Shown here one piece after another: positions 2,841 to 56,149 of a stretch of DNA of 64,000 nucleotides. Position 1 is the stretch's first letter. Each line of letters begins with the position of its first letter. Source of the stretch: Daedaleopsis sinensis (taxonomy: Eukaryota; Basidiomycota; Agaricomycetes; Polyporales; Polyporaceae); contig CM066304.1 of assembly GCA_033807695.1 (NCBI GenBank), positions 3,162,001 to 3,226,000 on the forward strand, read 5' to 3'. The notes under the pieces were generated by a model that had not been told where the DNA came from, did no database searches, and was given only the letters and a program-made list of their open reading frames with translations. The translations under genes were made by a program, and so were the position numbers.

Positions 2841-3936
2841 ATCGAGCTGCTACTCGGCTTGGACTCGGACTCGGACTCGGAATCAGGTGTTGTTGTTTGG
2901 GTATACTCGTGTGTTCGCTGTACTCCACGGGCTCCTCGTGTTACTAATAGGTGTGCATTTTAAAGTATTGCTCGTATTTGCTTCTCAACCTCCATCGCGG
3001 GATCTACTATCTCCTCAACACAAGGGCTGTCACAGGTACGCCCTCGCCACTGTCCCTCTCATTTCTAGCCGATGCTGCGGTAGGTGTCGCAGTTGCTTGG
3101 AAACAATGTCTGACCCAACGTTCACGGACTCGCCGCCAGCCTAGCTGTGGCAAGATTGCCAACCACAATGGCGCCGAAAGCTCATCCGCTTCAAAGCGCG
3201 TCGACGGACGTATCCCTGCACAAATCTACCTTCGTATGGAGAGTCGTTGACTCGGACTACTTTCGCGTGGCTCGTGACAGCGCATGATTATCATCATGAT
3301 GCTCGAACAAGGCGTACTTGCGACTTCCACAGAAACCCCGGGGCTATCCCTCTTTGCCATCATTTCCTTCCACGCCTCTCGCTCTTGAGCTTGAACTCCG
3401 CCATAAAGACCTCCGTCGGCTCTGGGTCTCGAATGTAAACGTAACGCATGTCCATGGCGGATATCTGCAGTGACCCTATGATGTCCGTGGTTACCCCCGG
3501 CGGCTACTTCGGATCAGGAACCAAAACTTATAATAGCCCGGTGGTTATACAAGTCGATCACGAACGCCATATATGTGACTATCTTTGTCACGGTGTAGTA
3601 CTTGAACTGAGCTTCTATTTGCAGCTTTGAACTAGTACTAGAGCTAGCAGAATGACTCGCAGGCCGATCGCGATATGTTGCTTCGGGGGAGACATCAGTC
3701 CTTGCAACGACGTTGGAGTTCATGATATACATATGGCGACGATAAAACCAAGCCACAAGCGGAAGATTGACATACAGCCCATAAACTAAGTGCTAGTAAT
3801 ACAGTACGAATAAACGGGCCCAAGGACAGTGATTCATCATAATCGTACGAAGTCGCGTGCTAGGGAAAGACATGAGTTAGTCACATAAAGGTTTACGTCC
3901 AGTACTACAGCGACTCACCAAAATGATTTTCGTCTC
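2841..3936. other. intergenic, no gene recognised
   Basis: About 1.1 kb between convergent genes. Short open frames on both strands show no domain, signal peptide or consistent splicing. It probably contains the two 3' ends. Confidence 0.5.
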
Positions 3937-37900: not shown

Positions 37901-38346
37901 GGTTTCCGCCCATGTCATCATGAGCTTCGCTAGTTGAGTCTGGTCATGAAGCCGACGTCCTGGCACAAACCCGGCTTGCGACTGGTGGACAATATCATCC
38001 GACACGCTCGCCAGCCTAATCGCGAGAGCTTTCGTCATCAACTTATAATCTGTATTTAACAGGGTGATCGGGCGGTAGCTGGAGATACCTGACCTCTCTC
38101 CCTTGCCCTTGTACAGCGGGCACATCCAGCCCTCGTTGAAGGCTGCTCCTTCCACTACTCCGAAATGCTGCACGTCCAGGAACGCGGCATGCAGCACTAG
38201 GATGACATTGAATGCGTCCCGCTCCTCATGTCTGGAGTCTTCCACGAACCTCGCATGCATGGTCTTCCATACTTCGTACGGTATGCCGTCTATGCCCGGG
38301 GCTGAGTCATTCTTGGAGAACTTTAGTGCCCGCTCACACTCCCCGT
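34946..38346 (-). CDS. LINE ORF2, 3' part: reverse transcriptase, RNase H, zinc knuckle
   Basis: This is the downstream part of ORF2, cut by the gypsy insertion at 38346. The RT domain shows NDSAPGIDGIPYEVW, YRPITLLNTDYKLMTKAL, AGFVPGRRLHDQ, ALDQEKAYDKI, GVRQGDPISCLLF and the catalytic FADD in ATLFADDTTVYL. RNase H follows with DGSCLNNG, TGEIVAT, SETDSE and KGHSGHPRNEGADRLA. The C-terminus has CKRCDEIETMEHILFDC (C-x2-C-x7-H-x4-C), the zinc motif usual after LINE RTs. This half primes and copies the element's RNA at the nicked target and degrades the template. The 5' half is at 50952-53457. Confidence 0.9.
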
Positions 38347-39232
38347 TGATGAGCCTCAGGACCAGCTAGGCCCCGGAAACACCACGCAGCCCATCACTAT
38401 TCGCGCCCGTCAGTCAATTCACGCAGTATGAAGGCGAGCGACTACCGAAGGAGCGAGTACGGAGACATGCCATTCCAAGGGTCGAAGGAGCCGATGCCGA
38501 GCTGCCGGCGGCTGACCGAGGTCGCCAGAGCTCTAGCCAGGACAGAGGAGGCGATCGATCGAGGGTCTGGTCTAGGCGACCGCCACGGAGTCCAGCAATT
38601 GGTACGAAGGTCGTCGGAAGAGGCCCGGAAGACAAGGGAGTGAGGGGGACGGCCTTCCGAGGCCTATGAAGACGAGCGGATGGACTTCAGACGCGATCAC
38701 GTGGTGACGCGCCACAAGACTAAGCGCTCTCGTGACCGCGGATGCAAGTCGAGCGGCGACGTGATAGGCTCGGTGCAAACACCTACCTAACCACCGGAGT
38801 GCGCCGTAGGGGTTCAGGAGAGGAGGATCGCGACGTGAGCGTGGGAGGAGCAGGGTTTCCTATGATTGGACGATTGGTAGGATAGTTGTAGTTTATTTGG
38901 TGACGATTTGTACAGTATATAAGTCAGCGGGATTGCGGCCCAGCAAAGCAGCGCAGTAGCTCCAGAGATCGAGTCCGAGTCCAAGAATCATCTAGTCGAC
39001 ACTCAATTGAAGACCGTCCATCTTCAAACCTCCTCTTGCAGACTAGCCTCACCCACGGAAGTTGCTTGACTTCCATCTGAAGTTGCTCAACTTCCTTGTC
39101 TATCGTCGACGGGCTACGTGAAGAAGAGCGACTACACCGGGAACCTGTCCTCCACCTCGCACCCTACTAGGTAGCTGATCTCGTGCTCGTTTGGGTGTGT
39201 GTTTCGCCCAGCGACCCAGAGTTACCCCATCA
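38347..39232 (+). repeat. 5' LTR
   Basis: 886 bp, TGATG...CATCA. A TATA box (TATATAA) lies at 38916-38922, so R should start near 38945. Two adjacent hairpin-forming stretches lie at about 39058-39105 (GGAAGT...ACTTCC and GAAGTTGCTCAACTTC), inside the predicted R/U5. Confidence 0.95.
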
Positions 39233-39235
39233 TTC

Positions 39236-39257
39236 TGGAGCCCACCGCGAGGGGTTC
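39236..39257 (+). promoter_or_regulatory. primer-binding site
   Basis: TGGAGCCCACCGCGAGGGG starts three bases after the LTR. It has the TGG (CCA complement) start and the stem/loop layout of a tRNA 3' end. The tRNA identity was not determined. Confidence 0.6.
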
Positions 39258-39666
39258 AAGAACAGTCTCCACCGGTTCCGGCTCAAGAATCCCACGTTTG
39301 CGGCCGACGCGGAGCGAACGTATCCGTCGCCTCCATCGACAAACCGAACAGGCTTTAGAGGAAATCGAAGCAGAAGACCCCGAGAGAGCAGAGCAGCTCA
39401 CTACCGTTATCGAGAACAACTTCGCAGTTTTCGCAGACTCTCCGCTTACCGAACTAGAGGACGCTTCCGAAGACGAGCAGGAGGATATTGAAGTTCCGGA
39501 CCATCCGTTCCTGACTTCAGAATCAATTAGTAACCCAAGACCTACGCTATCACATACCGCAGGGGCCTTCAACCTACCTAGGAACCCCCTTCCTTCCCTG
39601 CTAGCCTACGCCGCTCAAATATTACCTACGGCTCTACCACCCGTAGTACCACCCACAATCCATTCA

Positions 39667-42081
39667 ATGGCTAGCGCAGATCTATCGAAACTACCGTTGC
39701 GTACGGAAAGGAGTGCGCCCCAATTCGATGAGGAATCTAAGGACACCGTCGAGCGGTACTTTGACGACCTTGCCCGACTTCTGAAGAAGCATAGCATCAC
39801 TGATGAACAAGCTTGCAAGGCGGCGGCGGTTGACTACATACCAGCGGGAGTCGCCAAGCGATGGAAGTCCCTGCCGACGTTCTCGGACACCCAGAAGACG
39901 TATGAAGAATTCAAGACGGAGGTTCTATCCTTCTACCTCGGGACGGATGCCCAGTACACCTGGACACTGCGAGAATACAATGAAGTCATCGGGGAAGCCG
40001 TACGTACGGGGATATCCAGCCTCGAAACCTACATGAAGTTCTACGGCAAATTCTATCCCATCTACCGGTACTTGCATGCGAAGACCGAGCCAGAGCTAAC
40101 GGAGCGCGACGCGTCGACAGCCTTGCTACGACTAGTTCCTATGCAGTACACAATGGCGGTATCCGCGCGGTTAGCACACCAGGTGCCTGCAAAACACAAA
40201 GAAGAAGCTTACACGGTCGCGCAAGTGCATGAAGCAATTTCCTATTGTCTGGCGGACGGAGGCCCGTTCGGCGGGATCGGAAGTTGGTCAACTGCGACGT
40301 CCGGTAACCTCGCTCGAGTCAATCCTCCGGCTCCAGCCATGGCCTCCACGGTTACGGTGAAAACCGAGCCGGATCTATCGGCCTTCAAGCGGGAGATGAT
40401 CTCCATGATGAGTTCGACCATGCGCGACTTCGTGAGCCAGCAGAGGATGCAAGCCACGCAACCGCCGCAACAAGGGGAACAATACCCTCCACCACCACAA
40501 CCTCCCCAGGGAAGGTACCAGCAGCAGCAGGGGGGCCTATACGGACGTAATCCACCCGCTAACGACGAATGCATCTACTGTGGCCTACCGGGATGTCGGT
40601 TGAAGACGTGCCCGAAAGTCGCAGAGGACATGACGGCGGGACTCATCCGGAAGGACGTATACGACAAAATCATCCTACCAGGAGGCGGTGTGATCCCTCG
40701 TAGTCTGCCAGGGAACTGTATGCGCGATAGAGTCAATGCTTGGCACGAAAAGAACCCAAACCAACGAGCGCGAGGAACCATGAGCAACATCTATCAGTTC
40801 GAGATGCAGGAAGACGAGCGTACCTTGGAAGAGGAGTTAGAAGTCCTCATGCACAAGGCAAACATGGTTAAAGAGCGCATGAACACTCGCTCGGGACGGC
40901 AGGTTTTTGATGGAGTCGAGCTAGAGACGCGGCCTCGACGTATTACGCGCAACTCGGAGAAAGGGAGGGACGACACGCGGGCAGGGACGCCCGAGCGTGA
41001 TCAGCCGCCTCACCAGCCGACGAGAGAGAAGGGAAAGGAGAAGGAGAAGCACGTTACCTGGGACACGAGGGCAAAAGAGCCTGAAGAGACCTTCCATCCC
41101 TATGCGCCGACTGTGGTACCCAGAGGCCAGGAACTGCCGAAGAAGGACGAACCACCGGTCAGAAGGACCGCAGCGATCATCGACCCGACCGCGGAAGAAA
41201 GAGTCTTCAACCGAAGCTTCGGAGACAGCCAGAGTATCACAGTGTCACCAGCCGAGCTACTCAGTATTTCTCCAGGACTCAGGAAGCGAGTGCATGAGGC
41301 CACAGCTCTCAGGCGAACGCAAGTCAGAGACGAGCAACTGCAGGAAGTGACCAACCGGGAAGGCGAGCGGCCTCGGAACAAGGTACTAGTGACCGAAGTC
41401 GCTGAAGACGAAGACTTCCTGGAAGACAACCTCCAGACAGCAGGAAGTTCATCCTCCGGGACTGGAAGGCCGACGCTTGGATCCTTTGCATTCGTAGACC
41501 TGGACTATGAAGGCAGCGAGGACGAGGACGAGGAGCCAAAGTCGCACAATGCACCGTATGTAGCTCCGGGACAAGGCTATCCTGCGAGCAGTCGGCGGAA
41601 GTCAACCATCGTAGCCTCGGAATCGGAGAAGCTGAGGTCGCTGTTCACCTGGGTAGCTCGAACGGACACGCCGACAGAGTGTACACTCGACGATGGGTCC
41701 CAGATCGTCGGTATAAACGACCAAATCGCTTATGCGTTGAAGATCCCCTACGATCCTACCAAGCGAAGGAGGATGATCAGCGCAAATGGGACGGTCGACA
41801 TGACACTCGGTCTAGCAAAGAACGTGCCTGTAGAATTAGGTGGCGGGATCGTGGTCTACCTCCAGATGCATGTTGTGAAGGCAGCGCCTTACCAGATCCT
41901 CCTAGGAAGGCCGTTCATGACGGTGATGCGTGCGAGGTCGAGCAACTCTATGGATGGCCAATTGTCAATTACCGTCACTTGCCCTAACTCGAACCGCGAA
42001 TTGACGCTACCGACCTACGCGCATGGAGACTCTCCGAGTTATGGACTCAGAGTCGAGGGTTTTCGGGCTTCGAGGATCTGA
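39667..42081 (+). CDS. gypsy Gag-protease polyprotein
   Basis: 804 residues from the first ATG (MASADLSKLPLRTERSAPQFDEE). The same frame is open 156 codons further upstream, into the LTR, but has no ATG there. The capsid-like helical region runs through RYFDDLARLLKKHSITDEQ and FKTEVLSFYLG. A zinc knuckle of unusual C4 form (CIYCGLPGCRLKTC) follows, then a charged linker. The C-terminal aspartic protease has ECTLDDGSQIVGIND (DDG in place of the usual DSG/DTG) and YQILLGRPFM. It forms the particle shell and processes the polyprotein. Its stop overlaps the pol start as TGATG. Confidence 0.9.
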   Translation: MASADLSKLPLRTERSAPQFDEESKDTVERYFDDLARLLKKHSITDEQACKAAAVDYIPAGVAKRWKSLPTFSDTQKTYEEFKTEVLSFYLGTDAQYTWTLREYNEVIGEAVRTGISSLETYMKFYGKFYPIYRYLHAKTEPELTERDASTALLRLVPMQYTMAVSARLAHQVPAKHKEEAYTVAQVHEAISYCLADGGPFGGIGSWSTATSGNLARVNPPAPAMASTVTVKTEPDLSAFKREMISMMSSTMRDFVSQQRMQATQPPQQGEQYPPPPQPPQGRYQQQQGGLYGRNPPANDECIYCGLPGCRLKTCPKVAEDMTAGLIRKDVYDKIILPGGGVIPRSLPGNCMRDRVNAWHEKNPNQRARGTMSNIYQFEMQEDERTLEEELEVLMHKANMVKERMNTRSGRQVFDGVELETRPRRITRNSEKGRDDTRAGTPERDQPPHQPTREKGKEKEKHVTWDTRAKEPEETFHPYAPTVVPRGQELPKKDEPPVRRTAAIIDPTAEERVFNRSFGDSQSITVSPAELLSISPGLRKRVHEATALRRTQVRDEQLQEVTNREGERPRNKVLVTEVAEDEDFLEDNLQTAGSSSSGTGRPTLGSFAFVDLDYEGSEDEDEEPKSHNAPYVAPGQGYPASSRRKSTIVASESEKLRSLFTWVARTDTPTECTLDDGSQIVGINDQIAYALKIPYDPTKRRRMISANGTVDMTLGLAKNVPVELGGGIVVYLQMHVVKAAPYQILLGRPFMTVMRARSSNSMDGQLSITVTCPNSNRELTLPTYAHGDSPSYGLRVEGFRASRI

Positions 42082-45000
42082 TGAACAGTCAGGGAGAGGT
42101 CGCTCTCGTCCTCGACTATGACGCAAGAACGGGTCAAGTTTTCACGACGGCGTACAAGGACTTAGAAAACCTAGAAAATTCCACAATTCAGTCAGCATAT
42201 CTATCGGCCTGTGACGACTCCGAGACAAAGCAGAAAATCAAAACCATGTTCTCGAAAGTACCGATCCAGGAATCGGAAGGGGATAGAATGCGGAGCCGAC
42301 AACCACATCGCGAAGTCGACCGAGCCCTCTTCCGAGGACGAGCACTCCCAGTATACGCTACGAAAACCAGAGGCAGAAGAGCAGTCAGAACCCGGTCTAG
42401 GTCCAGCGAAGCAGCAAGAGCGAGCGAGAAATCTGAGCCGAGCGAGCAAGAACAAGAGGCGGAAGGCGAGCAACTTCCAGAAGACGACGAGCGGCAAGCA
42501 GCCACCGAGGACCCCGAGAGCGTACGCAGCTACGTGAAATCGAAGAAGAAGTACAAGCCAGTGGATAAGAAAGTACGACCAGTGATTGGGGAGCTTCCAA
42601 AGCAATACAGAATTGTACGGGAGATAATCGGCGACCCTCTCGAAGGGATGAAGCCGCTTGACCTCAATCCAAAGCCTTTTGAACCAACTGGGCGGTACAC
42701 AGCTGAACGACGCGAGAAGCTCCACAAAGTCAATGCTCACCTATCGGAAGAAGAGCTAGCTTTGCTAGACGACATGATGTGCAAACAGGAGCAGGGATTC
42801 GCTTGGGAAGACAGCGAGCGTGGCCACTTCAGGACGGACATGTTCCCACCAGTGAAGTTTGCGGTTGTGCCTCACACTCCGTGGATTGAAACGAATTTCC
42901 CCATTCCACCCGGAACCTACCGACAAATCTGTGAGATCATGAAGAAGAAAATAGAATCAGGCGTATACGAACCCTCAAATGCGTCTTACCGATCCAGGTG
43001 GTTCTGTGTGCTGAAGAAGGACGGGAGTCTGAGGATCGTCCATAGTCTGGAGCCGCTCAACAGAGTCTCTATTCAACACAGCGGTGTACCACCGATACCC
43101 GACCACATGGCAGAACGCTTTGCAGGGCGTGCGTGCGGGACGACCTTGGATCTATACGTTGGATACGACGAGAGGATCCTGGACGAAGAGTCGCGCGACC
43201 TCACGACCTTCCAAACGCCTTTCGGAGCCATGCGACTGACGACGCTACCAATGGGATGGACAAATTCAGTACCCATCTTCCACGACGACGTGACCTACAT
43301 ATTGCAGCCTGAAATTCCGGATACGACGATTCCCTACATCGACGACGTACCTGTCATTGGACCGGAGTCTTCCTACGAACGGGAAGATGGTTCTTTCGAG
43401 TGTATGAAGGGGAATCCAGGCATCAGGAGGTACATCTGGGAGCACATGCAAGACGTCAACAGGATTGTACAGCGGATGAAACATGCGGGAGGTACCTTCT
43501 CGGGCAAGAAGTTCGTCTGCGCGGCGCGCGACTTCGTAGCGGTGGGACATCGATGCACACCGGAAGGCCGTCTTCCAGAGAGAGGTTGCGTGGATGCGGT
43601 ACTCAAATGGGGACCGTGTAAAAATGTTTCCGAAGTACGGTCGTTCCTGGGAACGGTAGGCGTTGGGAGGATCTTCATCAAGAACTTCGGGAAGAAGGCC
43701 GCGCCATTAGTCAAGCTCACGCGGAAGGACGTACCGTTCGAATGGGGAGAGGAACAGGACAAGGCCATGGAGGATCTAAAGACAGCATTAGTGGAATCCC
43801 CGGCCTTGAAGTCGATCAACTACGAGTCGAAGGCCCCGGTAATTCTAGCAGTGGACACCTCTTATATCGCGGTCGGCTACCTGCTGTGTCAAGAGGATCC
43901 GGAAGACCCGCGGAAACGATACTACAACCGCTTTGGATCCATTACCTTGAACGAAAGGGAAGCCAGATTCTCGCAACCGAAGCTCGAGCTATATGGTCTG
44001 TACCGAGCATTGAAGGCGCTCCGCTTCTGGCTGGTCGGGGTACGAAACCTAATAGTAGAAATGGATGCGACATCTACGAAAGCCATGATCCAGAATCCGG
44101 ATGTCGCGCCGAATGCAGTCATGAATAGGTGGATCATTAGCATCAATATGTTCCACTTCGAAATGCGGCACGTACCTGGAATCTCCCATGGACCGGACGG
44201 TCTCAGCCGACGACCTGCGCAGCCTGAAGACGAACCAGAAGAAGCAGACAACGGAGAATTCGATGACTGGGTGGACAACATGTACGGCTTTACACACCTC
44301 ATAAATCCACCTCCACACTTGGGAGACGCTCCTCTACAACACGAGGTTAAGCGGAAAACGAGCAACTTCAAGACGGAAGCGATGGGCTTCAGTGCGCTCA
44401 TGCAGCAGACAAGCGGGACGGCGGGCAAGCTACCGGACATTCCAGAAATTGACTACGCAATCGTACCGCGCACGGAGGTTGCCCAGAAGTTTGACCACAG
44501 AATAGCGAACGTCTACGAATTTCTGTGCACCAAGAGAAGACCGAAGCTGGTTCAGAAGGAGCTCGATGCGTTCGTCAAATACGCAGGACAATTCTTCGTG
44601 AAGGATGGCCGACTATGGAAGATAGCGAAGAATGGGAACCACAGGAGAGTACTACCCCCAGAACTACGGGCGAAAGCGTTCGTGAGCATGCACGACTTCA
44701 TAGGACACAGAGGCGTACAGGCGACAATCTCCTTCGTGGCCGAACGGTTCTGGTGGCCAGAAATGAAGGCGGATGTGGCCTGGTATGTGAGAAGCTGCCA
44801 CCAATGTCAAATTCGACAAACTACGCGGATCTACATACCACCTTCAGTTTCCTATCCTGCGGCGCCGTTCGTACGAGTTCACGTCGACTCTATGGACATG
44901 CCTGGCTCGTACAAGCACTTCTTCCATGCGAGGTGTGCAACCACAAGTTATGCTGAAGGGCGGGCAAGTACAGTCCAAACAGCGAAGGCGGTCGGCGACT

Positions 45001-45851
45001 GGATCTATCAAGACCTGCTGTGCAGATGGGGAGCGCTGTCCGAGATCGTGTCAGACAACGGAAGTCCATGGGTTGCAGCGTTGGAGTACCTGGCAAAGCA
45101 ATACCACGTCAAGCACATACGGATCTCAGGATACAACTCACGAGCGAACGGAATCGTCGAGCGGCCTCATTTCCACGTCCGGGACGCGCTCTTCAAAGCA
45201 TGCGAAGGTGATACGACGCAATGGGTGGCGCGGGTATATTCAGTACTCTGGGCGGACCGAATCACAGTACGCAGGAGACTAGGGTGCTCACCCTACTACG
45301 CGGTAACTGGGACGGATCCAATCCTGCCCATGGACATCACAGAAGCCACGTACCTGCTGCCTATACCGACGAAGCTCGTGTCCACAACGGAGTTGATCAC
45401 CAACAGGGCGATGGCATTGCAGAAAAGACCGGAGGACATAGCGCGGTTGCGGTCAACCGTCTACCGAACACGCGTCCAAGCTGCGGAGCTATTCGAGAAA
45501 GAACACAGCGCAACCATCCGAGACTTCAACTTCCAGCGAGGGAGGCTGGTTCTGATGCGGAACACGGCAATTGAGAAGTCGCTCAACAGGAAGATGAGAC
45601 CACGGTACCTAGGCCCTCTAGTAGTGATATCGCGCAACAGAGGCGGCGCGTACATCATTGCAGAACTCGATGGGACCGTCTTCGATCGACCCATAGCGGC
45701 CTTCAGAATCATCCCCTACCTAGCGCGTGAGGACCCAATCAACTTCAATATTGAGGAACTGGACGCACCACAGAGCCGACTGCAAGAATTAGAAAACACA
45801 ACAGAAAACTACGAAGAGGAAGGATTAGCAGACGACGACGAACACGGCTGA
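42081..45851 (+). CDS. gypsy Pol: reverse transcriptase, RNase H, integrase
   Basis: 1256 residues from an ATG that shares its A with the gag TGA. Domains in order: a charged N-terminal region, then RT from about residue 270 (KFAVVPHTPWIETNFP, RSRWFCVLKKDGSLRIVHSLEPLN, TPFGAMRLTTLPMGWTNS). The catalytic YIDDV lies in TIPYIDDVPVIG. RNase H is around VILAVDTSYIAVGYLL and QPKLELYGLYRALKALRF. Integrase shows an HHCC-type zinc region (HDFIGHRG... SCHQCQ) and the DDE triad (HVDSMDMPG, VSDNGSPW, GIVERPHFH). A C-terminal chromatin/DNA-binding part ends at DDDEHG. All catalytic residues appear present. Confidence 0.95.
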   Translation: MNSQGEVALVLDYDARTGQVFTTAYKDLENLENSTIQSAYLSACDDSETKQKIKTMFSKVPIQESEGDRMRSRQPHREVDRALFRGRALPVYATKTRGRRAVRTRSRSSEAARASEKSEPSEQEQEAEGEQLPEDDERQAATEDPESVRSYVKSKKKYKPVDKKVRPVIGELPKQYRIVREIIGDPLEGMKPLDLNPKPFEPTGRYTAERREKLHKVNAHLSEEELALLDDMMCKQEQGFAWEDSERGHFRTDMFPPVKFAVVPHTPWIETNFPIPPGTYRQICEIMKKKIESGVYEPSNASYRSRWFCVLKKDGSLRIVHSLEPLNRVSIQHSGVPPIPDHMAERFAGRACGTTLDLYVGYDERILDEESRDLTTFQTPFGAMRLTTLPMGWTNSVPIFHDDVTYILQPEIPDTTIPYIDDVPVIGPESSYEREDGSFECMKGNPGIRRYIWEHMQDVNRIVQRMKHAGGTFSGKKFVCAARDFVAVGHRCTPEGRLPERGCVDAVLKWGPCKNVSEVRSFLGTVGVGRIFIKNFGKKAAPLVKLTRKDVPFEWGEEQDKAMEDLKTALVESPALKSINYESKAPVILAVDTSYIAVGYLLCQEDPEDPRKRYYNRFGSITLNEREARFSQPKLELYGLYRALKALRFWLVGVRNLIVEMDATSTKAMIQNPDVAPNAVMNRWIISINMFHFEMRHVPGISHGPDGLSRRPAQPEDEPEEADNGEFDDWVDNMYGFTHLINPPPHLGDAPLQHEVKRKTSNFKTEAMGFSALMQQTSGTAGKLPDIPEIDYAIVPRTEVAQKFDHRIANVYEFLCTKRRPKLVQKELDAFVKYAGQFFVKDGRLWKIAKNGNHRRVLPPELRAKAFVSMHDFIGHRGVQATISFVAERFWWPEMKADVAWYVRSCHQCQIRQTTRIYIPPSVSYPAAPFVRVHVDSMDMPGSYKHFFHARCATTSYAEGRASTVQTAKAVGDWIYQDLLCRWGALSEIVSDNGSPWVAALEYLAKQYHVKHIRISGYNSRANGIVERPHFHVRDALFKACEGDTTQWVARVYSVLWADRITVRRRLGCSPYYAVTGTDPILPMDITEATYLLPIPTKLVSTTELITNRAMALQKRPEDIARLRSTVYRTRVQAAELFEKEHSATIRDFNFQRGRLVLMRNTAIEKSLNRKMRPRYLGPLVVISRNRGGAYIIAELDGTVFDRPIAAFRIIPYLAREDPINFNIEELDAPQSRLQELENTTENYEEEGLADDDEHG

Positions 45852-45882
45852 CACTCACGTTGACGAGGACGTCAAATGGAAA

Positions 45883-45896
45883 AAGTGGGGGGGAGG
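45883..45896 (+). promoter_or_regulatory. internal polypurine tract
   Basis: AAGTGGGGGGGAGG lies 32 bases after the pol stop and is identical to the tract that abuts the 3' LTR. It may be an ancestral 3' end or a central PPT. Confidence 0.6.
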
Positions 45897-46301
45897 AAGT
45901 CGCTTGACTACGGAAGTCAATTCCTCTACAGGCCGAAGAGCGCTTCAAGAGGCGCTTCGCGCGTCGGTCATCTCGGAGATCACACAAGAAGAAGAGCAGA
46001 AGGCGATGCGATACATTCGGGATACTAGATACAGTACAGATTAAGACGGACAACAGAAGCTGAGCGCGACGGGATACGGGAAAGAAAACCAGAAGGAGAC
46101 ATTACAAAGCCCAGAGCGACAGGAGGGAGACGGAGAGACTAGTCCGCGGGAGACAGAGACGAGCAGAGGAGATATATGCGAAAAACAGAAAACAAGACAG
46201 CGCGAGCCGCGCGACGACAGGACGAGACGACGACCAAGCAGGAGATGACAAGAAAAGCTAATAACAAGAAGTCCGTGGACGCGCGCGCGTCGAAGAAGTC
46301 C

Positions 46302-48566
46302 CTACTCGGCATTGCGAAGAAGCTCGAGGAGATCCTCACGATAGCCATTGGACGCCACCAAGTCCTTGAAGGACCGCACGTCGTCGCACCCTTCGATCTT
46401 CACGCCAAAATCGAGCTGGGTCTGTCGAGTCTCGCGGCGGGAAAGCTGCCGAATGGACACCAAGTCCTCGACGATGCGCGCGCGTGCGAGGCTGACCTGC
46501 GAGCGAAGATGGTTGACCTTCGCGACGACCTCCGGCGAGAAGCTGACCGGCTCCGGCGATCTGCGCTTGGAAGATGAGGACTTGATCGAGATCTTGAGGG
46601 GCGTCGCCGGTTGGGAAGTCGACTTGGAGGGGCTCGGCTTCTCCTTCTTGACGCTGCCAGAAGCGCGAGACGAACGAGGAGGCGGCGTAGAGTCGTCGGG
46701 TTCGGCCTTGCTGTTGCCATAGTCCTCGAGCAGGCGGCCCTTCTCGTCGAGCGAAGGATAACGCGTAGGACCCTCCGGGTACGGGTAGACGGGGGTGTCC
46801 TTCCGGATGGTCTTCGGACGAAGACGCTCCTGGAGCGCGGCCTTGTCGACGGAGAGGAATTTGTGCGAGTTCCTCTCGAACTGGCGGACGAAGTCGACGG
46901 CGAGAAGACGGTCGGCGGGCGGCAGCTGCGAAGGTTCCCGGAAGGAAAACCCAACGCCGTTGTACATCGCGCCGATGCGGGCATGCACTAGAAAGAATAC
47001 AAGAAGTCAGCAAGAAGACCAAGAGAAGAAGGGGGAAGGTACTGACCTTTGACCGTCCCCTGGACACTCAGGTGGTCGTACGCGCAAGAGAAGCTTTTCC
47101 CCTTCTTCTTGCAGAAGTTGCAGCGGAACGCGGAAGGGTCCGGACGTCTGCAGGTGACCCCGGCGCGACGGCACTCGTCGCAGTCGCCCTCGATCTGCAC
47201 GGCGCTGGACAACTCCACGGAACCTTGGCGAGTGGAAGGAGGCTTCTTGTCGCGCTTCTTGACCCTAGGCGACAACTCGACGACGGGAGGCGGACGTTTG
47301 CGGGGCGAGGTGCGGGACTTCTTCTTAGGAGGCTCCTCCTCCTCGAGTTGGTCGACTTCTTCTTCGCCTTCATCGTCGACCTCGCCCTCAGCATCGCGGT
47401 CGGAATCGTCCGCGGGAGGAGAAACCGCCTTACGCTTTCCCTTGTCGACGGGCTTCTTGGGCGGCTCGCTCTCATCGGTGCTGAAGAAGAGGGGCGTCTT
47501 CTTCCTCTTCAGCGGCAGCTGAGACAGCGGAGGAGGAGGAGGTTGGTCAGGCGAGAGGGGGGAGCGTGTGCGGAAACGACGAGGAGAGTCGCGCTGGGCA
47601 GCGTCGGCCAGAGGCTCGTCGTCAGAAGCTTCCTCTTCGGGAACGTACTCGACACCAGTGACCATCGCAGCCAGGAAGGCGTCGCCAGGAAGGGCATCGG
47701 GGTCAGACGAAGGCGCGGTTGACGAGGAAGTGGGGCGTGTGACGAGAATCCTCGTGAGACGCTTCTTGTCGAGGACCGGGACGTAACGCATGCCGGACAG
47801 CAAAGGCAAGAACTGGTCGACGCGAGTGTCGATGGTTTCACGAGAGGCGCGCATGTCGGGCGGGTAATCGGCGACCTCCATCCAGCGCGGCTGGATGATC
47901 TCGTGGTACCAATTCACTGCAAGGAAGAAGCGGTCTTAGTCAAGCAAGAGTGAGGGCGAAGAACGTGAGTACTTACGCTCGAAGAAGCCCAGCCGAAGGC
48001 GGTGAGCCTGGAAGGCGATGTCGATCTCCAGCGGGGACTCCGTGACGGTGCTCGAAACCGCGAACAACCGCAACCGGCGAGAAGCCAGCGCGTACGAGCG
48101 AAAGAACTCCGAGACCAGGGAGGGCGGCGCGTAAAACTCGAACGTCGGGAGCGCGGCGAGGAGCAGGGGATCCAGGTACCAATTCCACTCCGGGACGAGA
48201 CGGTGCTGCGAAAAAGGAATGTGTCAGCGAGACAAGACTTGGAAGGCCGGGACGGCGTACCAGAGCCATGACGATACGATCAAACATGGCCTTGAACGTG
48301 CCATATGAGAACGTAGCGAGCTGGTCGTCGGTGTACTCTTCCAAGATCGCCCGGAAGTCGCTGATCGTCAGCGGAGCGGCGTCCTGATCGCGAAGCTCGT
48401 CAGGCATAGTAGGAACGGGCTCCTCACAGCCAAGTCGATCGGATTCACGCGTGAATTGCAACGGGAGCCACTTGAACAGCTCCTTGGGGATCGGTCGCCG
48501 AGGAGCATCGGAAGACGAGCGAGTGGCGGCGACGTTGGAAGACGAGCGACGGTTGGAAGCGGACAT
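46302..48566 (-). CDS. antisense spliced gene in the retrotransposon: 696-residue protein with Zn2Cys6-type motif
   Basis: Four exons (48566-48261, 48205-47977, 47916-47047, 46987-46302) with introns of 55, 60 and 59 nt, all GT...AG and phase-consistent. Together they give 696 residues with no stop. The start is ccaccATGt in MSASNRRSSSNVAATRS. The N-terminal half is helical and folded-looking (PKELFKWLPLQF, ISDFRAILEEYTDDQLATF, VPEWNWYLDPLLLAALPTF). An acidic/Pro/Lys-rich linker with nuclear-signal-like runs follows. At about residues 424-456 lies C-x2-C-x6-C-x9-C-x2-C-x8-C (CDECRRAGVTC...CNFCKKKGKSFSC), the spacing of a fungal Zn2Cys6 cluster. The C-terminus contains a helical segment (VVAKVNHLRSQVSLARARIVEDL). 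It could be a DNA-binding regulator; that is inference. No family is recognised otherwise. Confidence 0.75.
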
Positions 48567-48739
48567 GGTGGGCGATGGATGAGAAGACGAGAGGAGAATG
48601 CACGAAGGCGGACAACCAGAAGGCCAAAACGTTTATTAAGGGCGACAGTCAGAAGAACGTGAAGGGAACCGTGAAGTACAACGTCCAAATGCGGTAATCT
48701 AAGCGCTCTCCGCGCGACGGCGATCGAGGGCGGCCCCAA

Positions 48740-49348
48740 TCAGTCGCACATCAAAGGAATAGAACCGAAGACTTCATCCTCGTCTGACAGAGAGGACGGC
48801 GACCTTTCCAGCTTCTTGATGGCCGCGTGGAGGGCGGACTGCTCAATACGCACCCCGCGCAGTTCAGCGGCGACCAATTCCAGACGCGCGAGTACTTCCG
48901 AAAAATGAACGCGGTACCGGTCGTCGCGCGCCAGGTCGCGCATGACCTCCAAGAGTTGAAGTTCGTGTTGCAGAGTGGCATGCACTGAGTCCAGGGGAAC
49001 GCCTCAAGGCCGTTGGAGTAGAAACACTGGTCGATGGCGATGGACACGCGGGCAAGTAGGTCGGAAACGCCGACGAGAAGGCCGTCATGAAGCATGCTCC
49101 AACCATACTGGGAAGGTGTCAATCAAGCGCGAGAAGCATCAGGCCGAGAAGCTCACCAAAAGTTGTCCTAAACGGGAAAGCGCGTGTTCATACACAACGC
49201 GGGGACAGCCGTGGTCGACGGATACCGTCTCGAAGAACTCGATTTGCTCAACAATGTGCGCACGAAGCGGGGAGAGGAGTTCAAGGGCCAACTCGCGGTG
49301 CGAGCTGACTTGGAGGGCGAGCGTACGCGGGAGGACGGTCGACGACAT
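48740..49348 (-). CDS. second antisense ORF of the retrotransposon block; exon structure incomplete
   Basis: Exon 1 (49348-49157, starting MSSTVLPRTLALQVSSHREL) joins in phase to an exon beginning YGWSMLHDGLLVGVSDLL at 49107 across a 50-base GTGAGC...CAG intron. The final coding-like part (HATLQHELQLLEVMRDLARDDRYRVHF...VFGSIPLMCD, stop at 48740) is in another frame. I could not find a phase-correct intron linking them, so there is either an unseen splice or a frameshift. The C-terminal part looks like a coiled coil. Function unknown. Confidence 0.45.
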
Positions 49349-49410
49349 GAAAAATGGAAGTTGATGAACTTCGAAGGCAGTTACAGCGGCTTTATACGAC
49401 ACGCGGCTAC

Positions 49411-49981
49411 TCAAAAGTGGATGTCCTCTCGGAGGCTGGCAAACTCCTGATCTATCTCCTCCATTTCCTTTTCGACCTTCCGGATCCGGGCATCAACCAG
49501 AATAGACTCCGTGATCAAGGATCCTCCGGCGCGATTGAGGACGCGGCGCGCGCAGAGTTGCTTCCGGAGCCGCTGCTGACAGGCAATGCGACGAGCATCG
49601 AGGTCGGCCCGACGAGCGCACCGACGGGACCGGGCGACAAGCTCTTGGAAAAGGAAGAGCTGACGGTCAGCCAAGGCAGGCCAGCCCTCGGTGATCGTAT
49701 TCTCGGTCCGTTTCACGAAGTCCGCGGCAACCTCGCCATCGTCCCCCAAGGTGATCAAAGTGTCCTGCCATGAAGACAGTCAGCCACGAAGACGAGGGCC
49801 TACACGCGGAAGGAGGACGACGTACCACCAGTTCAGCGATATGGTCGTAAGAATCGTAGATGATTCCAACGTCCTCTTCAGTACGAGCGGCAGCAAGAGC
49901 CTCGAACTCAGAGATCGCGACTTCAAGCTGACGGACAGTCTCCGTGAGGATGGGGACGTTGAGGAAGATGAAGGCAGACAT
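49411..49981 (-). CDS. antisense spliced gene of the retrotransposon block: 169-residue coiled-coil protein
   Basis: Exon 1 (49981-49826) and exon 2 (49764-49411) join in phase 0 across a 61-base GTACGT...CAG intron. It starts MSAFIFLNVPILTETVRQLE. The body is helical and charged (RQLEVAISEFEALAAARTEED, RIRKVEKEMEEIDQEFASLRED), which suggests a coiled-coil dimer. A minus-strand TATA box lies 36-43 bases upstream of the ATG, just inside the 3' LTR boundary. So this antisense gene has its own promoter rather than depending on the LTR. No family is recognised. Confidence 0.6.
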
Positions 49982-50016
49982 TGCGAAGGATGAAAACCGA
50001 GGATGGAACGAGGGAG

Positions 50017-50024
50017 TTTATATA
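50017..50024 (-). promoter_or_regulatory. TATA box of the antisense block
   Basis: TATATAAA on the minus strand, 36 bases upstream of the ATG at 49981 and about 40 bp inside the 3' LTR. Confidence 0.5.
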
Positions 50025-50051
50025 CGCGCAAACCGAGGACGGTTCGAATGC

Positions 50052-50065
50052 AAGTGGGGGGGAGG
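50052..50065 (+). promoter_or_regulatory. terminal polypurine tract
   Basis: AAGTGGGGGGGAGG ends exactly where the 3' LTR begins (TGATG at 50066), the expected plus-strand primer site. Confidence 0.85.
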
Positions 50066-50951
50066 TGATGAGCCTCAGGACCAGCTAGGCCCCGGAAACA
50101 CCACGCAGCCCATCACTATTCGCGCCCGTCAGTCAATTCACGCAGTATGAAGGCGAGCGACTACCGAAGGAGCGAGTACGGAGACATGCCATTCCAAGGG
50201 TCGAAGGAGCCGATGCCGAGCTGCCGGCGGCTGACCGAGGTCGCCAGAGCTCTAGCCAGGACAGAGGAGGCGATCGATCGAGGGTCTGGTCTAGGCGACC
50301 GCCACGGAGTCCAGCAATTGGTACGAAGGTCGTCGGAAGAGGCCCGGAAGACAAGGGAGTGAGGGGGACGGCCTTCCGAGGCCTATGAAGACGAGCGGAT
50401 GGACTTCAGACGCGATCACGTGGTGACGCGCCACAAGACTAAGCGCTCTCGTGACCGCGGATGCAAGTCGAGCGGCGACGTGATAGGCTCGGTGCAAACA
50501 CCTACCTAACCACCGGAGTGCGCCGTAGGGGTTCAGGAGAGGAGGATCGCGACGTGAGCGTGGGAGGAGCAGGGTTTCCTATGATTGGACGATTGGTAGG
50601 ATAGTTGTAGTTTATTTGGTGACGATTTGTACAGTATATAAGTCAGCGGGATTGCGGCCCAGCAAAGCAGCGCAGTAGCTCCAGAGATCGAGTCCGAGTC
50701 CAAGAATCATCTAGTCGACACTCAATTGAAGACCGTCCATCTTCAAACCTCCTCTTGCAGACTAGCCTCACCCACGGAAGTTGCTTGACTTCCATCTGAA
50801 GTTGCTCAACTTCCTTGTCTATCGTCGACGGGCTACGTGAAGAAGAGCGACTACACCGGGAACCTGTCCTCCACCTCGCACCCTACTAGGTAGCTGATCT
50901 CGTGCTCGTTTGGGTGTGTGTTTCGCCCAGCGACCCAGAGTTACCCCATCA
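50066..50951 (+). repeat. 3' LTR
   Basis: 886 bp, at a constant offset of 11,719 from the 5' LTR with no differences seen by eye. It is followed by CCGT, matching the CCGT before the 5' LTR. Confidence 0.95.
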
Positions 50952-53457
50952 CCGTATGACAGGTCCTGGCCCATGTCTTCTGCTTGCTGCTCGCTCAATG
51001 TTCTCTCGATGGATGCGATGACCTCCGCTGCCGCTCCTTCTCGCTGTGCAGAGGCAAAGCTTTCCGCTCCCTCATCCTGGAGACTCATGTGGTGTGTTCT
51101 TGCTATCTCACACATTGCCCGTGTCTTATACTCATACACAGGTCCTCCATCCGGTCTTCGTTCAGATCCGCGCTCCAGACACCTGAGAGTATCTCTGGGC
51201 CGAACATCCTTGTTCACGCGCACCCAATACTTTGTGGGCCGGTCGCCCTCCAGCTTGTGTTTTGCTCGAGCTCGCTGTTTCTGTATGCGAATTCGCACCC
51301 TACGCCTCTCCCTGATCTGCTCAGTGAGTGCTGCTGATTCAGACTGCCGAACCTCGTCAGACACATGTGTGTTGCGGCGCAGCCGCTCCAGCGCCGCTTC
51401 CCTCGCGCGGATTTCCGCTAGCAGCCTCGGGACAGTCTCCCTTTCACGTTCTCGCGCCATTGCCATCCAGTCCCGCTTCAATGAAGCCAAGACAAGCTGG
51501 GCGTTTCTTTGCTCCGTCCGCGCATCCTCACTTGCGATCGCGACAATCTCCGCAGCTGCACTGACACCACGGGCATGCATTCTTTTTCTCAGCTTCCGGT
51601 CTTTTATCAGCCCTGCTGGGAACACCGGTCTGCCCTTCCCGATGTCCGGAGCGTGACGGTGCGTGATTTCCACAGACACCATACTGTGATCGGTCTTAAC
51701 CCCACACTCATGAATCTTCCACTCCCTGCAGTCCTGGAAGATGTTCCTTGCGACATACATGCGGTCGAGCCTCGACATCTGGGCGTCCCTTCCTGCCCCG
51801 CGGAGGAACGTATACGCTCTTTCGTTCGGGAATGTTTCACGCCAGCCGTCCACCAGCATCAAACCTAGTGCACGTTTCAGAGCATCCAGGGTGCCGATGG
51901 ATGAGTCGTCGGTCCCTCCGATCGGGAGCCTGTCTGCAGTGTCCTCGACATTGTTGAAATCACCTGCCATGACACTTGGTTTGTGTATCTGCGGGTGCGA
52001 GTTGTAGTATTCTTCGAGCTGCTCGAAGAAATGTCGTCTTGCTGTCTCGCCGTCCGATGTTGGGGCGTACACACCCAACATGTGTAACTGTTCTCCCCCG
52101 ACCCATGGCACGGACACTTGGATCGCCCTTCCTGGGACGATCTCCGTCATTGTGACGCCAGTGGCATTTACAAGCCTCCTGTTGATGACCACAGCGACAC
52201 CCTCCTTCTGCGTAGGGCGTTCAGGGTGGGCCGAGTACAGTATCTTGATCTTCCCCTTATACATCTTCTCAATGTACTCGACCCGTTCTCCTGTCAGGTG
52301 CGTCTCTTGAAGGAGTAGCACACCAATCCGGAGATCTAACATAGCTCTGTAGAGCTGCCCCCACTTGTTATCTGAATGGTCGCGTACCGTGCAACCAAAC
52401 CCATTCATGTTTAGGGATGCTACCCTGACACCCGACTTCCTCGCCCGCGTCTCCTCGCGCCGTCGCGATCTTCTGTTCTGTGGCCTGCCGCCTTCAGACT
52501 CGGCATTCTGGTGCCCTTCGTCACCGTCCACCGCCTGCTGCGACGGACCGGGGCCGCTGTCACCTCCTTGTGAGTGCAGGTCATCCTCCTGGTCTTGGCT
52601 TTCCAATAACCCATCGCGCGCTGGCTGCTGCTGCGGTGTGAGTCTCTCGTCGTCTGCCTGCTGTCGCCCCCGGCCTTCACCGGGAGTCATCGGTGTCTGT
52701 CCGTCATTCGTCGGGTGTGGTGCCCGCTCACTGTCGGCATTGCCGCCAGTGCTCTGTGCCTCGCGGTGTTCACCGTGGCTGTCTCGGACTTCATCAACAG
52801 CATTTCCATCATCATGATGGCGCTCGCTCACCCATGGTAGCAGTTCTGCTGGCTCAGCTGAGCCGCCTTCGTGCTGCACTTCCGTGCGAGCTTGCTGCTC
52901 CCCCTCAGGGTCGCTTTGTGGGACTTCCATCCCACGCCCGGGCACTCTGCTGTTCCCGTCTGGGTGCAGAGTGACATCCGGTTGAGATAGAGAAGGGGAA
53001 TCCCCTGCTCTCTGCTGCTCCCGCCCGTCCGACGTCTGTCTCCGAGTCTCATTTGAGGACTGTTGGAGGTCTCGCTGTCGCGAGACATCAGTCTCAGCAT
53101 TGCAGAACCCCTGCCGGGGTCTAGCAGCAACGATCCCTTCCGGGCATGCATCATGGTTAGTGTACAGTTGAGCAAGGAAAGAAGACGTACCTTGGACCGG
53201 GTATATTCCGCTGTTCGAAACGATACGGCTGTCCTCAGAGCAGTTCGCCGCAGGATCGCGCACTTCTCCTCGAGCTCGTGCCGCCGCTATTGACCTGTTC
53301 CGTTCGTTGCCGTCGTGATGCTGCTGTAGCTGCCTAGATATAGTATTCGTGTTAGTTGTGGCAATGAGAGACTCCCTTACAGATTTGCTAGACCTATAAG
53401 TTCAATGTCAGTGTGAACCAAACCGGCGCGAGCATGGCAGTCATGCTCCGGACGCAT
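50952..53457 (-). CDS. LINE ORF2, 5' part: AP-type endonuclease and linker to RT
   Basis: Likely start MRPEHDCHARAGLVHTDIEL at 53457, a 47-base intron (53334-53380), then an open frame down to the gypsy insertion. A Gln/Arg-rich region comes first. The endonuclease follows: VRVASLNMNGFG, VLLLQETHL, GDFNNVEDTADR, SRLDRMYVA and TDHSMVS, the conserved residues of APE-type LINE nucleases that nick the target. An Arg-rich helical linker leads to the RT. Without the gypsy element and one CCGT copy, the frame runs on into 38346-34946 for a total of 1951 codons. If the intron is not used, a non-ATG start would be needed. Confidence 0.85.
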
Positions 53458-53732
53458 GACTCCCACACTCGCTGTCCAAGCAGCAGGCTTTCCTCCCAGC
53501 AAGCTGAGAGTATATTTGGGCCTGCTACTTATATATAGTTGCAGAACGCGCTCGCGCTCTGACTGTCCGGATCAGTCATAGAATTTCAACACACAGCCTG
53601 TGTGCTCGGTCGAGTGAGTGCGAGATGCAGGAGGATCTATTCACGACATTCTACAGCTATGCGGATTAGCAGCGTATCGGCGGGACAACAGGCTACTCGT
53701 CGACCAGCACACGTGCCTTCAGCAACCGTACT

Positions 53733-55416
53733 CTACATCCATACACCTCCACGGCCGCCCCGGCCGCCGCGACCGCCGCGGTTCCCGCGTCCTCCTCGTC
53801 CACCACGGCCACCGTTGCGGGCCATGGAGCTTCCAGCCTTCCCCGGGCCACCGGCCCTTTTGTTGAGCGAGCGGAACATCTCCCTCATCGCCAGATCGAA
53901 CGCCGCATCGTCGCGCTCACCATTCCCATGCCCGGTTCCAGTCTGGGGGGCTTCGGGGAGAGCCAAGGCTTCCGGGGTGACGCCAGGCCAACCGTCCATA
54001 GTCGCGATTGGACACTCGCCCGTCCGGTGAATGTCGGACTTGCACAGTTTGCAGTCCACCCGGGCGGCGTTGACGTCGAAGCGATCCATGCCGATCCAGA
54101 AGGCCTTGCGGCTAGCTACGATCGCCTTCCAAGCCTCCAGCTCGGACTGATCGTACGCCGGGGGCTTGGCCAGGAGGATGTACGCGGGGCGGACCACACC
54201 GCTCGGGTCTTCCGCTGACGACAGTTCGAGGGAGAACGTGTCTAAGGCCGCATCGACGATGGCCCTGCGGGTACCCGTCAGGCCCCAGTTGGCACGGACA
54301 AGTTGTGTCGTGAGGTTCTCGAAGGCTGCCGCCACTTCCCGTCCTTCCAGTGCGTGCTTGATCTCCACAAGAAGCGCCTGCTTCTGCTCGACCATATAAC
54401 GATGGGTGGCGCCCGCAACGATAGCGTCGCTCGTGAGGGTGAGGAGCTTCCATGACGCTTGGGGATTGTCGAGAGGGAGAGCCGTGAACGAGAGCGCTGG
54501 GCTCACTGCGAACACCTCCTGCTGCAGGAGGAACGTCCGGAGGACATCGGCGCCCTGGGGGATTTTCGCGAGCATCGCGAAGGGTGGGGCAAAGGGCTTG
54601 CTGTTTTCTTCCTTGTTTGGGATTGGGGTGTAGACCTTGACGTCGAAACCCTCGCCGTTGTTCGACTGGAACGCGAAGCCCCTTAAGTAGCTTTGAACGG
54701 CCGTCGCCACCTCAGGCGCTTTTTTGTACATCAGCTGCCCGCCGCCGTGCGTGACGATGGCGATGACTCGTGTTCCCTCTGCTCTGGCTGCTGCTGCCTG
54801 CGCCGCGAGCATGTTCGCGAGTAGGCGGTGTGTAGCGATGTGGGTGTGTATGAAGTCGGTGTCCGGGTACGGAGGGTGAGGAGGGAGAGGGAGCTCAATG
54901 GCTCCTCCACTGCGCGTGCTCAGAAGATGTGGATTCTCGCCCCGTGCTGCGACAGCCAGTGTGGCGTCGTCGAAGCGGTCAACGTACGGCATGGTGTTGG
55001 CGTTGAAGACGTGTCGAGTGAGGGGAGTCGGCAGGTCTTCTGTGGGCATCAACCGGACAGGCAGCGCTGTAATCGAGCGTGCCATCAGCAACGTACATGT
55101 TGGACGACATGGGCCACTCACCAGCTCCCGGTTGAGGAATGGGTGCGGCATTCGCCCCAGCAGGCGGTGCTGCCTGCTGCTGCTGCTGCTGCTGCTGTGG
55201 CTGCTGCTGCTGCTGCGGTGGCTGCACCGGCTCCTCCTCTCCCATCCGATGATCTTCCCCATCGCTTCCGCTCTCCTCCGCGTCGAGCCTCGGCTTCTTG
55301 AGTGCGCGACCTGCGTTCATCAGCGGTGGGGAGTGTGCGGTGTCACCCCCTTCGCGGTTGTGCGCTGGGCTGGCGCCCAAGGGAATCTGCGGGGAGAGGG
55401 GTGTCGACGTGGACAT
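53733..55416 (-). CDS. LINE ORF1: gag-like RNA-binding protein with CCHC knuckle and RGG box
   Basis: Read as two exons (55416-55122 and 55039-53733) with an 82-base GTGAGT...CAG intron in phase, giving 533 residues. Starts MSTSTPLSPQIPLGASP, then an acidic patch and a Gln run (PQQQQQPQQQQQQQQ). The body is helical. A zinc knuckle CKLCKSDIHRTGEC (C-x2-C-x4-H-x4-C) and a C-terminal RGG-rich tail (RGGRGGRGN...GGVWM) follow. These are nucleic-acid-binding features expected of an ORF1 protein that coats the LINE RNA. A shorter form starting at a later Met in the main frame would need no intron. It lies directly upstream of ORF2 on the same strand. Confidence 0.75.
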
Positions 55417-55804
55417 GGTTTGCAGAGGGCTCGCAGTGAGAGGGTCTCGCAGGCCGCTCGGGAGGTGAGTTTGATGACTCTTCGCACCTTTCTATGCTCT
55501 TATGTGTCCCTTTCCTTCTCAGGCTGTCCCCCGAGCCTCAAGCCTCGAGGCTTCACCGAACCCGTGTCTCGCGTTCATTCCGACGTCCAGCCCGTACATG
55601 ATTCAGCGCTGCGGTGTGCGCATTGATTCACAGCAATATACACAGGTTTCCGACATTTTTATGTTCGATCGTACCCGCAGGCATCGTGGAGGGCGGGATG
55701 GGCGGGGGGCTGGATGATGGTGGGTCGGGCCAAGCTCCGAATGAGCCCACACCGAGCTCGCTCGGTGCAGGCTCTTTCGGAATTGATCGGATGTTTGGCA
55801 ATGT
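55417..55804. other. LINE spacer between the short 5' ORF and ORF1
   Basis: No convincing coding sequence. It includes Pro/Arg-rich antisense frames that I regard as chance. Confidence 0.4.
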
Positions 55805-56149
55805 TTAGTTGTATTCACACGGGCTCTCGCCCGCGGTGACGCGGCCTCTCTGTCCGGCCGGCGCGTAAATTTTTGGCCTCCGGCGCTTCCGCCGACTGTC
55901 CTCGTCGCCGTCGGGGGCAGCATGCACGCCGCGACGACCTCTGTGCACCCTGCGTAACATGTCGTTCTGAGTGCTCGTGTTGGGGGCGGCATTGTCATGG
56001 GCGCATGCACCCAACTGTAGGGCCGTCGGGTTCTCGACCCAGGCCATCGTTATTAGAGGTAGACTCTGTACCTCCACTCTCTCCCCTCGGACGGTGCCCT
56101 CCAGCTCCGTACGCAGGGTAGAGGTTCCGCAGTATCCTCGCGACGACAT
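55805..56149 (-). CDS. short 5' ORF of the LINE
   Basis: 114 codons starting MSSRGYCGTSTLRTELEGTV about 100 bases from the inferred 5' end of the element. It is basic in the C-terminal half (RRVHRGRRG, SRRKRRRPK). No domain is recognised. It may be a real small protein, an upstream ORF controlling ORF1, or an N-terminal exon. Confidence 0.35.
   Translation of the reverse strand: MSSRGYCGTSTLRTELEGTVRGERVEVQSLPLITMAWVENPTALQLGACAHDNAAPNTSTQNDMLRRVHRGRRGVHAAPDGDEDSRRKRRRPKIYAPAGQRGRVTAGESPCEYN

Follow-up and report, generated by a model that had tools for sequence, protein, structure and literature searches.

The window analysed here is a 64,000-nucleotide stretch of the polypore Daedaleopsis sinensis (assembly GCA_033807695.1, contig CM066304.1, positions 3,162,001 to 3,226,000, forward strand). 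It contains a Ty3/gypsy long terminal repeat (LTR) retrotransposon with an additional block of three genes, designated A, B and C, on the strand opposite to gag-pol. These genes lie between pol and the 3' LTR and are bounded by two polypurine tracts (Table 1). The block is probably a conserved antisense accessory module of a Ty3/gypsy lineage in this fungus and its relatives, made up of two or three spliced genes that encode probable regulators. The spliced antisense frames of the window element's own family (family 1; "family" is our label) are under purifying selection, and the module and its strand are common to five families, family 1 included. The original prediction was of one gypsy element with an extra block. 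The block is confirmed, but the element is not a single oddity.

At least two, and probably three, antisense genes had been predicted. Genes A and C are confirmed and the third is gene B, which is broken in the window copy. The four exons and 696 codons foreseen for gene A agree with the junctions found (introns 48260-48206, 47976-47917 and 47046-46988), the spliced gene being 2091 nt long and encoding 696 amino acids (aa) plus a stop codon. Gene C has the two exons and 169 codons expected of it; other joins of similar length exist for its intron (49825-49765), and the one used here is the earlier reader's choice with a GTACGT donor. In the window copy, a 46-bp deletion after position 48995 (48995/48996) shifts the frame of gene B. 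All 31 further fetched loci that include this position lack the deletion. When gene B was read in 31 loci (L010-L040), a 201-aa frame was found in 29, the other two being unreadable by the search pattern.

The module is linked to pol in family 1. A DNA search of the 51.6-Mb assembly with gene A gives at least 37 matches, at least 32 of which (the window included) cover all 2265 bases at 94-100% identity. Among the matches listed, the remainder are two long partial and three short, distant ones. A search with the end of pol gives at least 40 matches; among those listed, 37 belong to family 1 and three are approximately 70% alike. Of these 37, again among the matches listed, 34 reach the end of pol and three stop short, and gene A lies within 700 bp in 34/34 of those reaching it. 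The further copies with the block that the original prediction proposed to look for are therefore present.

Coding constraint was assessed in 31 aligned copies (the window and 30 loci from L010-L040), drawn from 37 loci fetched. Left out were L009, which is the window copy, L034, where the match stops at 48634, two partial loci (L041 and L042) and three distant ones (L043-L045). Variants found in at least two copies were classed as shared and those found in one copy as private. Shared variants mark lineages that went on jumping; they were compared with neutrality in a coding test (binomial, with a neutral expectation at kappa 4 and a neutral nonsynonymous fraction of approximately 0.70-0.71). 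Gene A has 20 nonsynonymous (N) and 72 synonymous (S) shared variants (p about 4e-22) and gene C has 1 N and 17 S (p about 9e-9). In the final 549 bases of pol there are 3 N and 12 S, and purifying selection on A and C is approximately as strong as on this end of pol. Constraint between copies, suggested earlier as a check, is thus found. Removal of the most divergent copy (L040) makes little difference (A 17/61, C 1/15). Nonsynonymous changes make up a larger share of the private variants (N/S: A 84/98, C 6/12, pol 22/22), which would follow if many of these date from after insertion, and the share is still under the neutral one. The signal is weaker in gene B ahead of its deletion (shared 3 N/7 S, private 14 N/8 S). 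No stop codons occur among the classified variants of A or C.

The main weight of the coding argument rests on codon periodicity and on insertions and deletions (indels). Shared variants at codon positions 1/2/3 number 11/8/72 in gene A and 1/0/17 in gene C. The periodicity fits the spliced frame in all four exons of A (contiguous-frame offsets 0, 1, 2 and 1), and with the introns left in it blurs to 54/14/42. Relative to the window copy, the other 30 copies together have no indels in the A exons (2091 nt) and 18 in the A introns (174 nt). The introns are variable at 52/284 sites, close to the third positions of A (158/697), and the four non-coding stretches of the block are 12 to 24% variable. 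All five introns are present in 31/31 aligned copies. They have the GT...AG ends that had been predicted, with donor GT in 154/155 and acceptor AG in 155/155 intron-copies; with so few sites, splice-site conservation by itself tests little. The LTR row of the variant table was not used, as the L016 match stops at 50049 and unrelated flanking sequence inflates the private variants.

The other families with the same module layout are 2a (L046 and L047, approximately 99% alike over 4981 bases), 2b (L050), 3a (L072+L049) and 3b (L073+L071). L046 and L047 were reached through loci with pol approximately 70% alike, and 2b, 3a and 3b through the proteins of 2a and the window. In all four the order is a pol match, a polypurine tract, antisense A, antisense C, a second tract and a TG (putative LTR start). 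The pol of 3a and that of 3b are 69% and 67% identical to window pol over the parts compared, and the A and C proteins of the other families are approximately 22-35% identical to those of the window. Window A matches A of 3a (34% over 145 aa, E-value: 1.5e-19) and of 2a (32% over 103 aa, E-value: 5e-9), and window C matches C of 3a (29% over 157 aa, E-value: 3.6e-15). As 3a is 69% identical in pol and, over the best stretches, 34% in A and 29% in C, the antisense proteins change faster than pol. Families 3a and 3b also have an antisense frame where B would be, and these two frames are alike by eye.

In stretches of 200 bases, L046 and L050 are 47-84% identical across the end of pol and gene A. 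Identity then jumps to 89-98% from approximately position 3401 (oriented) onwards, through gene C and past the second tract, as though families 2a and 2b had recombined inside the module.

Passage through RNA is expected to strip retroelements of their introns. The antisense genes, whose introns are missing from none of the aligned copies, provide a natural test of an exception to this loss. When the window and 3a are aligned, their gene C introns fall in one column, both in phase 0, and the same is true of intron 1 of gene A. Exon boundaries in 3b, placed by tblastn, agree with these shared places. The C intron of 2a is three columns away from the window/3a position and is also in phase 0. 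That two intron positions are common to the window and 3a is supported with the donors that were chosen, and these introns are apparently homologous across diverged families. The donors of the 3a introns and of 2a C were selected for the form GTACGY or GTGCGT from several alternatives (five donors for 3a A intron 1, two for 3a C and four joins for 2a C). Several splice choices fit A introns 2 and 3 in family 2, where A intron positions are not placeable because the N-terminal alignment fails. The remaining introns of A are not the same from family to family, which suggests that intron gain or loss has occurred as well.

Relatives of these proteins are found in other genomes. P0001 (394 aa) is 73% identical over 52% of the gene A protein, P0004 is 83% identical to window C and P0005 is 82% identical to 3a C. 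P0003, annotated as a hypothetical protein of Daedaleopsis nitida (Polyporaceae), is 77% identical to C of family 2a. The D. nitida model has 16 extra residues at the site of the family-2 intron, which probably represent an intron retained in the annotation. The protein searches with A and with the 2a A exon scored only candidates sharing most words with the query, and among such candidates A has one relative (P0001) and the 2a A exon none. Some hypothetical proteins in polypore genomes (e.g. C8Q80DRAFT_1118515 of D. nitida) may belong to retrotransposons.

The gene A protein has six cysteines with the spacing C-x2-C-x6-C-x9-C-x2-C-x8-C, all invariant in the three A sequences of 2a, 2b and 3a. 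Against the isolated motif, PF00172 scores under its cut-off of 21 bits (E-value: 0.019, 15.5 bits), as it does against the isolated 3a motif (E-value: 0.63, 10.6 bits). Long acidic and Lys/Arg-rich stretches surround the cysteines. Sequence searches of PDB with the cysteine region gave nothing convincing. On these features, gene A is likely to encode a nuclear, Zn2Cys6-like DNA-binding regulator. Exon 2 of gene C is predicted to form long helices (pLDDT 85.5), and a Foldseek search of PDB with this model found nothing at an E-value of 0.001 or better. Gene C (with B) most likely encodes a small helical partner.

The same features bear on whether the antisense proteins could instead be a structural or envelope-like factor, acting for example in the particle or in integration. 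The block occupies the place of retroviral env, between pol and the 3' LTR, and the long helices predicted for C exon 2 would suit such a role. We consider it unlikely, as A has basic stretches and a nuclear-type (although sub-threshold) zinc cluster, and no membrane family was matched in Pfam.

It is also conceivable that the antisense RNA is the functional product, for example in double-stranded RNA control of the element, and that the open frames are incidental. Some antisense transcripts from LTR elements are reported to act as RNA (PMC7264820). The codon-position constraint, the lack of stops among classified A and C variants and the lack of A exon indels all argue against this reading, as do the A proteins of 2a and 3a, which match (35% over 83 aa) where a DNA comparison of the two finds nothing. 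Incidental frames are thus very improbable, although the RNA may have a role in addition to that of the proteins.

Insertion of a separate mobile element (e.g. a DNA transposon) between the polypurine tract and the LTR, followed by fixation, would account for the 14-nt direct repeat that flanks the block. This repeat, however, is the polypurine tract itself. It varies between family groups (AAGTGGGGGGGAGG in the window, CGGTGGGGAGGAGG in 2a and AGTTGGGGGGAGA in 3a and 3b), whereas the two copies belonging to one element agree, apart from one base in the 2b pair. In addition, no inverted repeats of 40 bp or more occur in 36000-56000 and no transposase family was matched in Pfam scans. Such an insertion is given little weight, although it may have been an ancient origin of the block. 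The doubled tracts suggest that both copies are functional or are kept in step.

Least probable is a single capture of host sequence, by transduction or chance insertion, that is carried without function: intron-bearing genes do resemble host genes and the window copy has a defective gene B, but this explanation is opposed by the presence of gene A behind 34/34 of the listed family-1 pol ends, by related A genes in five families, by the strong purifying selection and by the searches with A-type proteins (families 1, 2a and 3a), in which the matches listed are multi-copy sets or pieces with no single-copy host-like gene (neighbouring pol was checked for part of them).

The favoured interpretation is that A, B and C would be nuclear regulators with their own promoters within a conserved accessory module. 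TATA-like boxes (motif matches) are found 41-50 nt upstream of the B start in the window (48 nt) and of the C start in the window, 2a and 3a. The model that we propose is as follows. Each antisense gene is probably transcribed on its own and its transcript spliced by the host. The genomic RNA that is reverse transcribed would be the complement of A, B and C; by the known rules of splicing, the introns would show no GT...AG in this RNA and would be copied intact. The products of A and C (with B) would together regulate the expression or fate of the element, probably in a role comparable to that of Grande GENE23 or HTLV HBZ (discussed below). We infer that the antisense orientation lets introns travel, which fits the five introns in 31/31 copies and the two positions shared with 3a. 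We lean slightly towards a broader version of this model, in which an old basidiomycete gypsy lineage keeps a spliced, multi-gene regulatory unit. The antisense orientation would let its introns survive unlimited reverse transcription, with the same introns kept at approximately 30% protein identity, and the unit may sense a splicing-active nucleus before its regulators are made.

Several points weigh against this interpretation. Gene B is broken in a recent copy with identical LTRs and so is not needed in cis there; it is either dispensable in cis or was lost after insertion. No relative of family-1 B could be detected at the loci tested, and the B-position frames of 3a and 3b show no detectable similarity to it. 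C of 2a has no BLASTP match to window C (22% identity in the exon-2 alignment), and its link rests on place, strand and a nearby phase-0 intron. No module protein was recognised at locus L048, with pol approximately 70% alike. For 3a, more than one in-frame donor was available both for A intron 1 and for the C intron, and one was chosen in each case. Gene A of 3a has no TATA-like box within 150 nt, and the boxes of other A genes are weak or far away. Whole-protein Pfam scans match nothing, the Zn2Cys6 label is weak at 15.5 and 10.6 bits against 21, and the predicted structure of the A cysteine region is poor (pLDDT 36.5). Finally, antisense transcription, splicing in vivo, a nuclear site and a regulatory role are proposed from sequence.

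The HBZ gene of human T-cell leukaemia virus type 1 (HTLV-1) resembles the module in that a retroelement encodes a protein on its antisense strand. HBZ is spliced and encodes a bZIP protein, whereas the window module has no Pfam match to bZIP. The HBZ product is described as nuclear and important in the virus life cycle (PMC11963269). The HTLV antisense promoter is reported to sit in the 3' LTR (PMC7264820), while the TATA-like boxes of the window module lie inside the block.

Antisense open reading frames (ORFs) between pol and the 3' LTR are described in Grande, RIRE2, Retand, PvRetro13 and Boty of Botrytis, with Grande GENE23 given as nuclear with its own promoter and 97% of Retand clusters as having TRP28 (PMC7264820, PMC11963269). 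As described, the ORFs of the plant Retand lineage, Grande gene23, RIRE2 and PvRetro13 have the same place and strand as the genes found here, occur in most copies and have relatives across families. The Retand ORFs mostly have TRP28 (PF04195), whereas Pfam scans of the window proteins gave no TRP28. The present module differs from the plant ORFs in having two or three genes, introns and a fungal host; the word "intron" is absent from the main texts of PMC7264820 and PMC11963269. Rotifer elements are also described as having extra ORFs, with no mention of "intron" in the passages concerned (PMC5408684). In Boty-like elements of Botrytis cinerea, the region between pol and the 3' LTR is reported to hold a gene on the antisense strand (PMC7264820), named brtn (Zhao et al. 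2011, Virology; title in the references of PMC8365987). This gene is fungal and has the same place and strand, but its host is an ascomycete, and the likeness is by description.

No spliced, multi-gene or basidiomycete antisense module was found in the open-access literature searched. This agrees, for the spliced, multi-gene form, with the earlier statement that no such basidiomycete module was known, but antisense extra ORFs as such are known (PMC7264820, PMC11963269). Antisense accessory ORFs are a known kind, and by the searches made it is the spliced, multi-gene basidiomycete form that is new. The function of the plant antisense accessory genes is given as still unknown (PMC7264820), and the module offers a conserved set of genes of this class for study in fungal elements.

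The host element is a Ty3/gypsy LTR retrotransposon, as seen from its LTRs, polypurine tract, target-site duplication and domain order. The order of Pfam domains (protease, reverse transcriptase, RNase H, integrase) is that of Ty3/gypsy. The protease (PF13975, E-value: 9.7e-6, 26.5 bits) is slightly under its cut-off of 28.2. The pol ATG and the stop codon of the gag-protease frame share one base. In pol, the integrase zinc domain was matched and no integrase core was found by Pfam at an E-value of 0.1. At the same threshold there is no match to a chromodomain, by which the chromovirus branch is recognised.

Table 1 Coordinates of the element, its antisense block and associated features in the window
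Feature	Position	Strand	Notes
5' LTR	38347..39232	+	886 bp, TGATG...CATCA; same sequence as 50066-50951
gag-protease frame	39199..42081	+	960-aa ORF as listed; coordinates are those of the open frame, start putative
pol	42081..45851	+	Reverse transcriptase, RNase H, integrase zinc domain: PF00078, PF17919, PF17917, PF17921
First polypurine tract	45883..45896	+	AAGTGGGGGGGAGG; 14 nt, shortly 3' of pol
Gene A	46302..48566	-	Exons 48566-48261, 48205-47977, 47916-47047, 46987-46302
Gene B	48740..49348	-	Exon 49348-49157, intron 49156-49108, exon from 49107; end is the frame stop of intact copies, read by eye, coordinate approximate
Gene C	49411..49981	-	Exons 49981-49826 and 49764-49411; 169 aa
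TATA-like box	50017..50024	-	41-43 nt upstream of gene C start; motif match only
Second polypurine tract	50052..50065	+	AAGTGGGGGGGAGG; identical 14 nt, adjoins 3' LTR
3' LTR	50066..50951	+	Partner of 5' LTR at 38347-39232

The window copy is a recent insertion. Its LTRs, which had been predicted to be identical and to mark a recent move, match at 886/886 bases (100%), and the element is present in many copies. A 4-bp target-site duplication (CCGT; 38343-38346 at the 5' side) lies outside both ends, and 4-bp duplications were also found in 10/10 further family-1 elements that were chosen and checked at both ends. All 11 duplications (the window and elements among L051-L070) have a central CG (ACGT, CCGT, ACGC, GCGA, CCGG or GCGC), which indicates a strong CpG-centred insertion preference. 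Approximately 21 bp near 50148 are missing from the window LTR and present in nearly all other fetched copies with a 3' LTR. As both window LTRs are identical, this loss is probably older than the insertion.

The distant loci L043, L044 and L045 show 43-65% similarity to the C-terminal half of A, and the A-like piece of L043 overlaps a stretch with 86% likeness to the end of the LTR. These may be further relatives that are damaged or non-autonomous. In the window, an 814-aa open frame on the minus strand (50819-53263) runs from the flank into the 3' LTR. Its sequence looks like the endonuclease region of a non-LTR element (long interspersed nuclear element), and the window element may for this reason be nested in another retroelement.

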